Assembly: GCF_011927725.1 (NCBI RefSeq)
Contig: NZ_JAATJC010000001.1
Coordinates: 1,991,001-2,055,000 of the forward strand
Direction: 5' to 3'
Length of the DNA: 64,000 nucleotides
Source: Sphingomonas kaistensis
GTDB taxonomy: Bacteria; Pseudomonadota; Alphaproteobacteria; Sphingomonadales; Sphingomonadaceae
The position numbers were made by a program, and so were the translations under genes. The notes under the pieces were generated by a model. That model saw only the letters and a program-made list of their open reading frames with translations, was not told the origin of the DNA and searched no databases. Positions 47,560-52,294 of this stretch are shown piece after piece (the stretch's first letter is position 1; each line of letters opens with the position of its first letter).

Positions 47560-48285
47560 GTGAGGAAGCTCGGTGTCGTCGGCGGGGCGAGCTGGAACAG
47601 CACTGCGCTCTATTACGAGCATATCAACAAGGGCGTCGCGGCCCGGCTCGGCGGCTTGCACAGCGCGCGGATGGTGATCGAGAGCCTCGATTGCGAGGAC
47701 GATTATGCCGCTTTCCATCGCCGCGGCGACTGGGCTGGCGGCGAGCGGGTTGTGATCGCCGCCTGTAAGCGCCTCGCGGCGGCGGGTGCCGAGGCGCTGA
47801 TCCTGACCTCCAACACCATGCACAAGCATTACGATGCGGTCGTCGCCGCACTGTCGCTGCCCGTCCTGCACATCGGTGAAGCCGCGGCGGAGAAGATCGC
47901 CGCTGACGGGCGCCGCTCGGTGGCGCTGCTGGGGACCCGAGTCACCATGACCGAACCGCATGTCCGCATCCACTTCGAAGCGCGCGGCATCCAGCTCGCC
48001 TCTGTCGAGGAAAGCTGGGTGAGCGAAGTCGACCGGATCATCTACGAGGAGCTGGCCGCCGGCCGGGTGGTTCGCGAAAGCCAGCGCAAGCTCAAGACCC
48101 TGATCACCGAACTCGGCAAGAAGAGGGTGGAAGCGATCGTGCTTGGCTGCACCGAGCTGGTGCTCGCGGTCGATCCGCGCGCCAATGTCCTTCCCGTCTA
48201 TGACACCACAGCGCTTCACGCCCGCAAGGCGGTGGAATGGATCCTCGCCGATCACCAGGATGGCAAGATCGCCGCAGCCGCCTGA
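47560..48285 (+). CDS. Aspartate/glutamate racemase-family protein with altered active site
   Basis: This 241-residue protein closely resembles Escherichia coli YgeA: LGVVGGASWNSTALYYEHIN, RLGGLHSARMVIES, LLGTRVTMTEPHVRIHF and VLPVYDTTALHA. Racemases of this family use two cysteines. The second is present in VLGCTELVL near 195, but the first, in YgeA the Cys of LCTNTMHK, is a Thr here (LTSNTMHK near 86-93). A normal two-base racemisation is therefore doubtful; a single-Cys lyase or isomerase reaction, or a changed stereo-preference, is possible. GTG start follows GAGGGG. It lies 89 nt before the peptide gene. Confidence 0.85.
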   Translation: MRKLGVVGGASWNSTALYYEHINKGVAARLGGLHSARMVIESLDCEDDYAAFHRRGDWAGGERVVIAACKRLAAAGAEALILTSNTMHKHYDAVVAALSLPVLHIGEAAAEKIAADGRRSVALLGTRVTMTEPHVRIHFEARGIQLASVEESWVSEVDRIIYEELAAGRVVRESQRKLKTLITELGKKRVEAIVLGCTELVLAVDPRANVLPVYDTTALHARKAVEWILADHQDGKIAAAA

Positions 48286-48374
48286 GAATGAGCACGGGGT
48301 GATTGCGCATCGGGAACAGCTGGGTTAGGCCCCGGTTTAAGCAAGTCATCGATGATGCGCGTAAGAGGTGGTAT

Positions 48375-48497
48375 ATGAAGAAGGTCTGGAACAAGCCGGA
48401 ACTGCGGCGCCTGGTCGCCGGTGCAGCGGAATCGCGGCTCAAGGCCGGTCGGACTGACGCCACGCCGAACGGGAATGGCGGTCTCAACTTCAGCTGA
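48375..48497 (+). CDS. Putative RiPP precursor with lasso-type leader motif
   Basis: This 40-residue peptide starts MKKVWNKPELRRLVAGAAE. W5-x2-P8-x-L10 matches the aromatic-x2-P-x-L motif by which lasso-peptide leaders bind the RRE (B1) protein. The C-terminal part, TDATPNGNGGLNFS, is Asn/Gly-rich like a core. It has no Asp or Glu after D28, so a usual lasso ring (residue 1 to an acid at 7-9, with Thr at -2) cannot be drawn. AGAGG lies 6 nt before the ATG. Its end overlaps the asparagine-synthetase-like gene by 23 nt. That coupling and the leader motif are the evidence for a precursor; the modification is unknown. Confidence 0.65.
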   Translation: MKKVWNKPELRRLVAGAAESRLKAGRTDATPNGNGGLNFS

Positions 48498-50367
48498 TGA
48501 TCTGTCCAGGTTGACCCTCGGGGCGGGCCCGCGACCTGAATCCACTTTAGATTTCCTGATCCGCGCCGGCGCCGTGAAGGCGCCGGCGCGATCTTTGTTT
48601 ACCGTCGATAGCGCTGGCTCCGCGATGATGGAATGGCGCGTCCTGCGATTGCCCGACCGGTCGCAAGCCTTGGTGGTCAGGCGACGCGAGGCCGGAAACG
48701 ATCTTTGCTCGATCACGACCGAGGATCTGGCACAGGCGCTGCGGCGCTGGCCCGATGTCATCGAAGATGGTTTTGTCGTCGTTCGCGAAGGAGACGAGTG
48801 GCTGGTCTCGCTCGCTCCGGCATCGTCGTTCGACCTGTTTGCGGCTCTGGACGAAAACGGCGGTCTGCTGCTCTCGGGCACGGTCGCAGGTCTCCTGCAG
48901 CAAGGCTTCCCACAGGCAAACGTTGATCCCGACGCGCTCGCCGATCGGTTCGTCGGAGCCCTTACCGTCGACAGCTCCGATACCGTGGTTCGCGGCATCA
49001 AGCGGATCATCGGAGGGCACGAGGTTCGAGCCTGCGCTGGACAGCTTGCTGTCAGCCGCTGGTGGGAACCGCGCAAGCTGGCGATTCACCACGATCTGAC
49101 CTTGAAGCGGGCAGGGGCAGAGCTTCGCCGGATCGCAGAAGCGGTGGTGCGCCGTAACCTTCCCGCTGATGGTCCGGTCGGCGTGCACCTCAGCGGAGGG
49201 CGCGACAGCAGCGTTCTTTGCGCGCTTACCGCCAGCCAGCTTGCGGATGAAGGCCGGACGGTTCACGCGCTCACCGCCTTGCCAAGCGCGAACCTTCCCG
49301 ATGGTGACGAGCGCTACCAGTTCGACGAAGGGTCAGCCGCCGCTGCTACCGCCGCTCGCTTTCGCAACGTCGAGCATCATCTTTTCAGGCCAGAGCCGCT
49401 GCCGCTCGCGACCATTCTCGATAAGCTTCATCGCCGGATCGGCGAGCCGATCCATCAGCCGGTGTCGCTTGGATGGATATGGCCTCAGCTTTCGTTTTGC
49501 TCGGACCTGGGTCTTCCAACGCTGCTGACGGGGGATAGCGGAAACTTCACGGTCAGTACCGGCGGTCTCCTCAATCTGTCCGATGTCTGGCGCGAGAAAG
49601 GTCTGGTTGCCTGGTTTCGTGCCAGCGCGGAGGTCGTGCGCTCGGGCGGGGTCACGATGCGTGATCTTGTGCGAGAGAGCTTCGGCGGTTCGCTTCCGCT
49701 GCCATTGTACAAGGCGGGCCGCAAACGCGGGCAGCCTTCGATCCTTCCCAACGACTTCTCATTCTTCAAGGAAGCCATGCGCGGCAAGCTTCAGGCGATC
49801 TCCCCTCAGAATGAGGATCCCCGCCCGCCTACGTCCGCTCGCGCCCTGGTGCAGGAGATTGCCGCCAATCGCTGCAATCCCATGCCGCTGGGCAGGTTCG
49901 ACTTTGGCGTTGAATTGCTCGCGCCGTGGAACGACCGAGAATTGTTCGAACTGGTGCTGTCGATCCCAAGCGCGATGCTGGTGAGTGCGCCCGACCGGCG
50001 GCTCCTGTTCGAGGAGGCGTTCGGCGATCTGGTGCCCCAGGAAGTCTCGAGGCCACGTAAGCGGGGCCAGCAGAATGTCGACTTCCATGCTGCGTTTGAC
50101 CGCACGGACCTCGAAACCGCCGTGGAGCGGTATCGCGCATCAGCCCAGTGTCGCGAAGTGATCGATCTTGACCGCCTGGCCAAAGCGGCCAACCGGTGGC
50201 CGACCGAGCGGCGTACCGACATGCGCCACCTGTCTTACTGGATCGGGCAATTTCTCCCCGCCTTTTCGCTCGCCAGCTTCCTCAACAGCAGGGATTTCCC
50301 CGATGCTGGCGCTTTCGCTCCCACCGCCGACTCCTTACATGCGGGGCATGAACCGCACACCGGCTGA
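48475..50367 (+). CDS. Asparagine-synthetase-like protein (putative RiPP cyclase/amidotransferase)
   Basis: This protein, about 630 residues from the ATG at 48475 (TTG at 48511 is an alternative), has a divergent glutamine-amidotransferase-like N-terminal half without a catalytic N-terminal Cys, and an AsnB-type synthetase domain. The ATP-pyrophosphatase loop SGGRDSS is intact at about 240-246; the usual GxGxDE region reads LLTGDSGNF at about 350-358. Lasso cyclases (McjC type) are AsnB homologs that adenylate a side-chain carboxylate and likewise lack glutaminase activity. It follows the precursor-like peptide and overlaps uvrC by 20 nt. Codon use looks less GC-biased than the neighbours (by eye), suggesting transfer. 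Confidence 0.8.
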   Translation: MAVSTSADDLSRLTLGAGPRPESTLDFLIRAGAVKAPARSLFTVDSAGSAMMEWRVLRLPDRSQALVVRRREAGNDLCSITTEDLAQALRRWPDVIEDGFVVVREGDEWLVSLAPASSFDLFAALDENGGLLLSGTVAGLLQQGFPQANVDPDALADRFVGALTVDSSDTVVRGIKRIIGGHEVRACAGQLAVSRWWEPRKLAIHHDLTLKRAGAELRRIAEAVVRRNLPADGPVGVHLSGGRDSSVLCALTASQLADEGRTVHALTALPSANLPDGDERYQFDEGSAAAATAARFRNVEHHLFRPEPLPLATILDKLHRRIGEPIHQPVSLGWIWPQLSFCSDLGLPTLLTGDSGNFTVSTGGLLNLSDVWREKGLVAWFRASAEVVRSGGVTMRDLVRESFGGSLPLPLYKAGRKRGQPSILPNDFSFFKEAMRGKLQAISPQNEDPRPPTSARALVQEIAANRCNPMPLGRFDFGVELLAPWNDRELFELVLSIPSAMLVSAPDRRLLFEEAFGDLVPQEVSRPRKRGQQNVDFHAAFDRTDLETAVERYRASAQCREVIDLDRLAKAANRWPTERRTDMRHLSYWIGQFLPAFSLASFLNSRDFPDAGAFAPTADSLHAGHEPHTG

Positions 50368-52294
50368 CCGTCCGGACCACCCGCGCGCGACCGAGCGCTT
50401 CAATGAGGATGCCGCCACCTATACCGTTTCCGGGGCGGGGGAGGCGCCCGACCTCGAGGCCGGCGTCGCGGCCATCCGCAATGTCGTGAAGACCTTGCCG
50501 GTGCGACCGGGCGTCTACCGCATGCAGGATGCGCGCGGCGAGGTGCTGTACGTCGGCAAGGCGCGGGCGCTGAAGAACCGGGTCACCAATTACACGCAGG
50601 TGTCGCGGCTGTCGAAGCGGCTGCAGCGGATGGTGTCGCAAACCCGCTCGCTGACCATCGTTACCACCAACACCGAGGCCGAGGCCCTGTTGCTGGAAGC
50701 GCAGCTGATCAAGCGCTTCCGGCCGCCGTACAACGTCCTCCTGCGCGACGACAAAAGCTTCCCCTTCATCCTGCTGCGGGAAGACCATGCCTATCCGCGC
50801 GTGCAGAAGCATCGCGGTGCGCGGCGGGTACAAGGTCAGTATTTCGGGCCCTTCGCAAGCGCTGGTTCGGTCACGCGCACACTTAACGCGCTCCAGAAGC
50901 TGTTTCTGCTAAGATCCTGCAGCGACGGCTTTTTCAACAATCGCTCGCGGCCTTGCCTGCTGTACCAGATCCGCCGCTGCTCGGGCCCGTGTGTGGGGCG
51001 GATCGAGCCCGATGCCTATGCCGAACTGGTCGGCGACGCGAAGAATTTCCTGGCCGGCAAGTCGACCGGGGTGCAGGCCCGGCTGTCCAAGCAGATGGCC
51101 GAGGCCGCGGAAAAGCAGGATTACGAACTCGCCGCCATCTTCCGCGACCGCCTCCGCGCGCTGACCTACATCCAGGGCACGCAAACGGTGCATGCCGAAG
51201 GCCTTGGCGATGCCGACATCTTTGCCCTGGCGGCCAAGGGCGGGAGCATGTGCATCCAGGCCTTTTTCATCCGTGGCGGCCAGAATTGGGGCCACCGGGC
51301 GTTCTTCCCGGCCCACACCGCAGACGTTCCCGAAGAGGAGGTCTTCGCCAGCTTCCTGATCCAGTTCTACGAGGACATGCCGCCACCCAGGCGGATTCTC
51401 ATCGATCGCGAGGTGGCCGAAGCCGAACTGGTCGCCGACGCACTGAGCGAGAAGGCCGGGCGCAAGGTGCTGATCGAGCGTCCCCAGCGCGGCGACCGCA
51501 AGAAATTGGTCGACCAGGCCAGCCGCAACGCGGTGGAAGCGCTCGACCGCCGCCACGCCGAAAGCACCACACAGACCAAGTTGCTGCGCGAGCTTGCCGA
51601 CGCCTTCGAGCTTGCGGAGATGCCCAAGCGGATCGAGATCTACGACAACAGCCACATCATGGGCACCGCCGCCACCGGCGCCATGGTGGTCGCAGGCCCG
51701 CAGGGCTTCCTCAAGAACCATTATCGCAAGTTCAACATCAAGAAGGCGGCGACCGACGACGACTTCGGGATGATGAAGGAAGTGCTCGAACGGCGTTTCC
51801 AGCGCCTGGAGAAGGACGATCCAGACCGCTCCAGCGGGGAGTGGCCCGACCTCATCCTGATCGACGGTGGACGCGGGCAGCTCAACGCCGTGCTGGAGAT
51901 CATGGAGGATGCCGGGGTCCATGACGTGCCGGTGGTCGGGGTCGCCAAGGGACCGCACCACGGCCGCGAGGGGCGCGAGGTGTTTCACCTGCCAAACGGG
52001 CGGGAAATGACCTTTCCGGTCAATGCGCCGCTGCTATTCTACCTCCAGCGCCTGCGTGACGAGGCCCACCGCTTTGCGATCGGCACCCACCGGGCCAAGC
52101 GCGCCAAGAGCCTGACGACCTCGTCGCTCGACGAAGTGCCGGGCATCGGGCCGACCCGCAAGCGCGCGCTGCTGATGCACTTCGGCACTGCGCGATCGGT
52201 CAAGGGCGCGGCGCTGGAGGATCTCGAAAAGGCGCCGGGCATCAGCAAGGCGACGGCGCGCCAGATCTACGATTATTTCCATGCAAGCGGCTGA
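50348..52294 (+). CDS. uvrC: Excinuclease ABC subunit C
   Basis: UvrC makes both incisions in nucleotide excision repair. The 648-residue protein has the GIY-YIG domain for the 3' cut (RPGVYRMQDARGEVLYVGKA near 53-72), a Cys-rich region (CLLYQIRRCSGPC), a UVR motif (AAEKQDYELAAIFRDRLRAL), the RNase H-like domain for the 5' cut (RIEIYDNSHIMG, LILIDGGRGQLNA) and C-terminal helix-hairpin-helix motifs (LDEVPGIGPTRKRALL, LEKAPGISKATA). The ATG at 50348 overlaps the end of the preceding gene. Confidence 0.97.
   Translation: MNRTPADRPDHPRATERFNEDAATYTVSGAGEAPDLEAGVAAIRNVVKTLPVRPGVYRMQDARGEVLYVGKARALKNRVTNYTQVSRLSKRLQRMVSQTRSLTIVTTNTEAEALLLEAQLIKRFRPPYNVLLRDDKSFPFILLREDHAYPRVQKHRGARRVQGQYFGPFASAGSVTRTLNALQKLFLLRSCSDGFFNNRSRPCLLYQIRRCSGPCVGRIEPDAYAELVGDAKNFLAGKSTGVQARLSKQMAEAAEKQDYELAAIFRDRLRALTYIQGTQTVHAEGLGDADIFALAAKGGSMCIQAFFIRGGQNWGHRAFFPAHTADVPEEEVFASFLIQFYEDMPPPRRILIDREVAEAELVADALSEKAGRKVLIERPQRGDRKKLVDQASRNAVEALDRRHAESTTQTKLLRELADAFELAEMPKRIEIYDNSHIMGTAATGAMVVAGPQGFLKNHYRKFNIKKAATDDDFGMMKEVLERRFQRLEKDDPDRSSGEWPDLILIDGGRGQLNAVLEIMEDAGVHDVPVVGVAKGPHHGREGREVFHLPNGREMTFPVNAPLLFYLQRLRDEAHRFAIGTHRAKRAKSLTTSSLDEVPGIGPTRKRALLMHFGTARSVKGAALEDLEKAPGISKATARQIYDYFHASG

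Follow-up and report, generated by a model that had tools for sequence, protein, structure and literature searches.

The closest described systems are the phosphorylated class II lasso peptides, represented by paeninodin (PadeA/B1/B2/C/K) and by SyanA/SyanK of Sphingobium yanoikuyae (PMC9266682). Lasso kinases are described as sharing a His, a P-loop Lys and an Asp-Asp pair, and in paeninodin it is the C-terminal Ser that is phosphorylated (PMC9266682). The lasso leader motif has been worded as [Y/W]xxPx[L/V/I/F/A] (PMC13381572). Thr at leader position -2 has been termed universal in earlier precursors, with Ile or Val(-2) as the described exception (PMC10368454); these published exceptions mean that Thr(-2) is typical of lasso precursors and not strictly defining. 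Ile/Val(-2) relatives of one such pathway, bsf of Bradymonas sediminis, occur in Sphingomonadales (PMC10368454).

Here we analyse a window of 64,000 nucleotides from Sphingomonas kaistensis (contig NZ_JAATJC010000001.1, positions 1,991,001 to 2,055,000), in which a short peptide (A) precedes an asparagine-synthetase-like cyclase (C) with no B protein beside them. We propose that A and C are probably the substrate-specific half of a lasso pathway, with the remaining genes at other sites of the chromosome. Like paeninodin and SyanA, this pathway has separate B1 and B2 proteins, an HprK-like kinase with His-Lys-Asp-Asp and a C-terminal Ser (PMC9266682); unlike those systems, which are gene clusters with Thr(-2), it is spread over four places and has Glu at the -2 place. 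With bsf (Ile(-2)) it shares a kinase, B1, B2 and a departure from Thr(-2), whereas bsf and its relatives have Ile/Val(-2), bsf lies in a 7.2-kb cluster, and Glu or Arg is found at -2 here (PMC10368454). For citrulassins, too, the gene for one lasso enzyme (PAD) lies outside the cluster (PMC12971885), although only that tailoring enzyme is described as distant there and in the present case it is B1 and B2 that are distant. Some lanthipeptide proteases are likewise encoded away from their precursor genes (PMC8960859), in another RiPP class in which only the protease is described as distant. Searches of an open-access library, in which few subscription journals are represented, listed neither a lasso pathway with distant B1 and B2 nor one with Glu(-2).

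A selected precursor and its cyclase

The features of the locus are as follows (positions in the window; G000 is the window's own genome and other G labels are compared genomes).
47560..48285, + strand: Asp/Glu racemase family gene (PF01177), left neighbour marking the site
48375..48497, + strand: precursor peptide A, 40 aa (ORF list and translation; dN/dS; same peptide in G312 and G352)
48387..48404, + strand: leader motif W5-N-K-P8-E-L10, candidate site at which B1/RRE binding is expected (motif match; role from PMC10368454 and PMC13381572)
48429..48431, + strand: E19 at W+14, the place of Thr(-2) in two sister precursors (precursor comparison)
48435..48494, + strand: predicted core RLKAGRTDATPNGNGGLNFS (R21-S40), register from relatives, cleavage site putative
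48456..48458, + strand: D28, predicted ring acid, core position 8 (acid at core 7 or 8 in 26 of 27 AGxAE precursors)
48492..48494, + strand: S40, C-terminal Ser, predicted phosphorylation site (Ser last in 26 of 27; kinase gene in genome)
48475..50367, + strand: lasso-type cyclase C, start at ATG 48475, TTG 48511 or ATG 48625 (PF00733; comparison with relatives)
48562..48590, + strand: GC-rich hairpin of 12 pairs between A and the conserved ATG 48625 (1 found against 0.5 +/- 0.8 in shuffles; fold z -1.92)
49192..49209, + strand: ATP loop SGGRDS (sequence)
50348..52294, + strand: uvrC, right neighbour marking the site (UvrC domains; ATG 50348)

The original prediction, made from this sequence alone, described a 40-residue peptide with W5-x2-P-x-L next to an AsnB-like protein with SGGRDSS, and both are present. 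The peptide (48375-48497, plus strand) matches the motif [Y/W]xxPx[L/V/I/F/A] as W5-x2-P8-x-L10. Absence of purifying selection had been named as grounds for discarding it; its dN/dS is 0.03, 0.16 and 0.09 in the three pairs among G000, G312 and G352, and A is a real coding peptide under purifying selection, not a chance ORF. The C frame ends at 50367, scores 76 bits against PF00733 (Asn_synthase) and has an intact SGGRDSS, as expected of an AsnB-like cyclase with its ATP loop. Among NCBIfam models it scores best against albusnodin/ikarugamycin macrolactam cyclase, asparagine synthase and lasso isopeptide cyclase, in each case far under cut-off. Searched against the PDB, a profile built from ten C proteins hit 7 sequences, the best a hydroxyamidotransferase (7ylz) and none of the 7 a named lasso cyclase.

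The proposed 23-nt overlap of A and C exists if ATG 48475 is the start, but the C frame there is closed in G352 and the overlap is therefore not conserved, which rules it out as a lasting feature; G000, G312 and G352 all retain TTG 48511 and ATG 48625 as candidate in-frame starts. At its 3' end C does overlap uvrC, by 20 nt (uvrC ATG 50348). The hairpin at 48562-48590 is partly kept in G312 and G352. It has a T-rich tail and, by eye, two of its pairs change on both sides in G312; it is a possible A-C attenuator that would set the ratio of A to C. No sigma-70-like promoter was found at 48200-48700.

Codon use is less GC-biased than in the flanks, as had been noted (GC3 of 0.78 in A and 0.72 in C against 0.83-0.85 in the racemase gene, uvrC and recO), and this had been read as fitting a transferred module. 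The A-C pair, however, lies between racemase and uvrC in G000, G312 and G352, and the C genes that G341 and G345 carry at the racemase/uvrC site, though more distant, fall in one clade with them (SH-aLRT 100, in a quick tree with long branches). Because of this shared site and clade, a recent transfer is not supported and we rejected it. The racemase/uvrC junction is closed (gap <100 nt) in 10 of 30 racemase loci, so that an older gain of the pair and later losses are both possible. Junctions of 0.86-1.33 kb in G316 (L204), G315 (L205), G318 (L209) and G342 (L210) gave no detectable C match and hold either something else or a decayed A-C pair. The C frame of G319 is broken or split.

Candidate partner genes at a distance

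No match to PqqD, Transglut_core3 or a kinase lies within the 64-kb window, in agreement with the earlier statement that RRE, protease and kinase are missing nearby, but all three occur elsewhere in the genome, which is one contig (C1) of 2.85 Mb. The search of the whole genome for RRE/PqqD and transglutaminase-like B2 proteins that had been recommended found one of each, and our profile searches also found one such kinase.
C1:1972947-1973144: B1/RRE (PqqD protein), the only one in the genome
C1:2393036-2393353: B2 protease (PF13471), the only one in the genome
C1:1987103-1987996: HprK-like kinase, 3 kb left of the window
The kinase is 53 kb from C, and B1 and B2, at 67 and 353 kb, leave the A, B and C genes unclustered in G000. 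The idea of a lasso-type leader and cyclase without a local B, served by a distant partner, is supported by candidate genes at three other places on the contig.

Both B proteins are present, B2 above the NCBIfam lasso B2 cut-off (69 vs 33 bits) and B1 with the lasso PqqD model as its best NCBIfam match, under cut-off (58 vs 80); B1 also matches the solved lasso B1 chains 9x90 and TbiB1. The kinase is a weak profile match, under both the Pfam and the NCBIfam cut-offs; read by eye in an alignment, its FPLH, GAGKST and GDD supply the HprK-like His-Lys-Asp-Asp set. A itself ends in Ser (S40), as phospho-lasso precursors of the paeninodin type do. For B2 and the kinase, no PDB match was found at E 0.01.

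The scattering of these genes could mark a relic, a pathway that has been decaying since its cluster broke up and that has stopped processing its peptide. Decay would allow the faster evolution of C relative to its neighbours (76-81%, compared with 90-94% for the racemase) and the lack of conservation of the overlap with A. However, frames are open in all four genes, A, B1, B2 and the kinase, with dN/dS well under 1 (0.03-0.32 in pairs with G000; a few codons upstream of the start are part of the B1 and B2 alignments), and the ATP loop of C, the Cys/His of B2 and the P-loop of the kinase are intact. We regard a relic as quite improbable.

Some neighbours of the partner genes deserve mention. 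An ABC transporter beside B1 was considered as a dedicated exporter and rejected, because G306 (L193) keeps that transporter (82%) with no B1 beside it, though B2 is ~2 kb off. Directly beyond the 3' end of B2, genes at about 2386800-2392800 of C1 (L002:3800-9800) look like a prophage or mobile element; by eye, we take them to be a DNA methylase, an exonuclease and an integrase. B2 itself is full length relative to G312 and G352. The neighbours that we name enoyl-CoA hydratase-like and AI-2E-type are presumably of those kinds.

Related precursors and the core register

Among the matches listed, lasso-type C comprises at least 43 genes in at least 39 of 61 genomes of the genus, a list that may lack weak C genes; G348, for instance, has B1, B2 and the kinase and no listed C. 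Cyclase homologues lacking an upstream peptide would have spoken against the pair, and a leader-type peptide was found near 38 of the 43 listed genes, with none found for the C genes of G310a, G330, G336, G350 and G238 (5 of 43). The precursors near listed C genes comprise 27 of an AGxAE type, one each in G337, G338 and G274, and a further 10, found near 8 C genes, that carry Thr, Arg or Gly where the AGxAE type has its Glu.

The AGxAE precursors (WxxPx[LVI]...AGxAE), to which A belongs, have a Trp-to-Glu spacing of 14 in 27 of 27. If core numbering starts two residues beyond that Glu, 26 of these 27 precursors near listed C genes have an acid at core position 7 or 8 (24 of 25 without the window's two near-copies), compared with a mean of 3.7 and a highest value of 11 in 20,000 rounds of shuffled cores. 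The ring-place acid is the sole core acid in 23 of the 26; the one miss, G324, has a core without any acid. Ser is the last residue in 26 of 27. The register is set by two sister precursors in which Thr at W+14 is followed by one residue and then GGSTRNGE, that is, the familiar Thr(-2) and an 8-residue ring. At W+14, the ten sister precursors have two Thr, seven Arg and one Gly, and all ten have an acid at core 7 or 8. Two different Arg-W+14 precursors lie near one C gene in each of G351 (L171) and G299 (L175); their tails bear Cys (-CGS, -CAS or -NCS), which makes them possible disulfide lasso peptides. A precursor from another genus, G205 (L051), reads AGDAEL|GANPVIPE and has a Glu both at W+14 and at core 8; the AGxAE leader is therefore not confined to the window's genus.

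In this register the predicted core is RLKAGRTD-ATPNGNGGLNFS; Glu occupies the position normally taken by Thr(-2), and D28 lies at core 8, inside the core 7-9 range for the ring Asp or Glu, under a register deduced from relatives. The core had been described as having no Asp or Glu after D28. Taken literally this is correct, but the relatives' register places D28 itself at the ring position. We rejected an acid-free core, and the further claim that no canonical lasso core or usual ring is available here is not supported, given the acid at core 7 or 8 in 26 of 27 relatives. Some features do count against a lasso reading, among them the scores of C, B1 and the kinase under their profile cut-offs. 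Arg at core position 1 is unusual. Glu stands at -2 in 27 of 27 AGxAE precursors, where Thr or Ile/Val has been described (PMC10368454).

On points of detail, the chief alternative keeps the same pathway with a core one residue shorter, in which cleavage after R21 would give a 7-residue ring, L22-D28, and place S20 at -2. This would put W5 at -17, where described leaders have Tyr(-17), Pro(-14) and Leu(-12) (PMC10368454), and an out-of-genus precursor, G227, fits that spacing by eye. The sister precursors with Thr at W+14 and then GGSTRNGE put the Trp at -16 instead, and the shorter register would leave a 6-residue ring in 10 precursors with the acid one place earlier. We therefore consider the shorter core unlikely.

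It had also been suggested that the pair makes a different bond, Asn/Gly-based or a C-terminal amide, without B1 and B2. The B genes are indeed absent nearby, and Gln in place of the acid in three sister precursors implies that other chemistry may exist in the family. These precursors, upstream of C in G324 (L141), G338 (L157) and G274 (L173), have no core acid and carry Gln at core 7, 8 and 8, respectively; their C genes form one clade (SH-aLRT 100, quick tree), in which Gln at the ring place may point to closure by another, Gln-based chemistry. This clade is the nearest thing to a different bond, yet it is distinct from the window's pair: in the pair's own subfamily 26 of 27 AGxAE precursors near listed C genes retain the acid at the ring place, and B1 and B2 are present in the genome. 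For A and C, we judge a different bond highly improbable.

Co-occurrence and scattering of the genes

Among the matches listed, 39 genomes have C, and of these 37 have B1, 38 have B2 and 37 have the kinase (counted at E < 1e-14, a threshold chosen in this analysis). A partner occurs without a listed C in one genome for B1, three for B2 and two for the kinase; before the sub-cut-off G320 and G303 were left out, 39 genomes had B1 and 42 had B2. The genomes are related to each other and the counts are uncorrected for kinship, so Fisher values for them cannot be taken as independent evidence. B1 and the kinase are both lacking from two of the C genomes, G330 and G336, whose C genes belong to a different, deep branch. 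The kinase is a neighbour of B2, C or B1 in many relatives.

These data bear on whether B1, B2 and the kinase serve another RiPP of this genome and not this precursor. Distances of 53-353 kb would permit that, but G000 has one full-size lasso-type C among the matches listed, the 20-kb stretches searched around B1 and B2 yielded no leader-type peptide, and all three partners co-occur with C. We think another RiPP as their client rather unlikely, and prefer the reading in which they serve A.

The 36 genomes with C (among the matches listed), B1 and B2 divide evenly into 18 that are compact, defined as C with both B1 and B2 within 10 kb, and 18 that are not; in 10 of the 36, no listed C has B1 or B2 within 10 kb. 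G300, G305 and G332 are perhaps split only by contig ends, and without them 15 of 33 are not compact; G345, at 14 kb, was counted as far. Sites are conserved across genomes. A-C occupies an orthologous site in 3 genomes, B1 in 7 and the kinase in 7, B1 lying between the same two genes in G000, G312, G324, G352, G327, G315 and G316. In G324, G327, G315 and G316, B2 and the kinase sit together between two fixed neighbours; the same two neighbours flank the kinase alone in G000, G312 and G352, where B2 is far away at a place common to the three. A lone kinase at the site that holds the B2-kinase pair in four relatives is the clearest sign that B2 has moved, as judged from gene order. G316, G327 and G341 each have two A-C pairs with one B1, one B2 and one such kinase, which suggests that one B1/B2/kinase set is shared in trans by both pairs.

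Across the family, B1 and B2 both exceed the Pfam cut-offs in 62 of 199 genomes. In 38 of the 59 that fall outside the genus, a B1 and a B2 lie within 10 kb; the other 21, some of which reflect contig ends or distances just over the limit, indicate that dispersal is not unique to the genus.

Discussion

The pathway is most likely an unclustered, vertically inherited and probably phosphorylated lasso type with Glu(-2), as the sequence comparisons suggest. We infer that A is served by the B1, B2 and kinase found here, through putative cleavage, ring closure, threading and phosphorylation. B1 would bind the WxxPxL leader, the HprK-like kinase would phosphorylate the C-terminal Ser40 on the precursor, B2 would cut after E19-S20, and C would activate D28 with ATP and close an 8-residue ring onto the amine of R21. 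The predicted product mass is 2027.030 for the ring and 2106.996 with one phosphate (+79.966 Da). A broader account, which we rate as evenly balanced, is that a complete lasso pathway was dismantled stepwise and inherited in that state, with A-C as an inseparable, replaceable unit, B1, B2 and the kinase as a hub acting in trans, the protease re-tuned to Glu(-2), and the ring of the Gln sister clade perhaps closed by other chemistry.

Mining for adjacent A, B and C genes would score a scattered pathway as an orphan pair or miss it. The scattered layout is common to the closest relatives of this genome, and ordinary cluster-based searches would miss such pathways. Glu or Arg at -2, if true, would widen the known range of the leader protease, and the Gln sister precursors offer a clear test of what the cyclase requires. 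The genus forms a natural series from compact to scattered, in which one can ask why biosynthetic genes cluster and whether a single B1/B2/kinase set serves several precursors.
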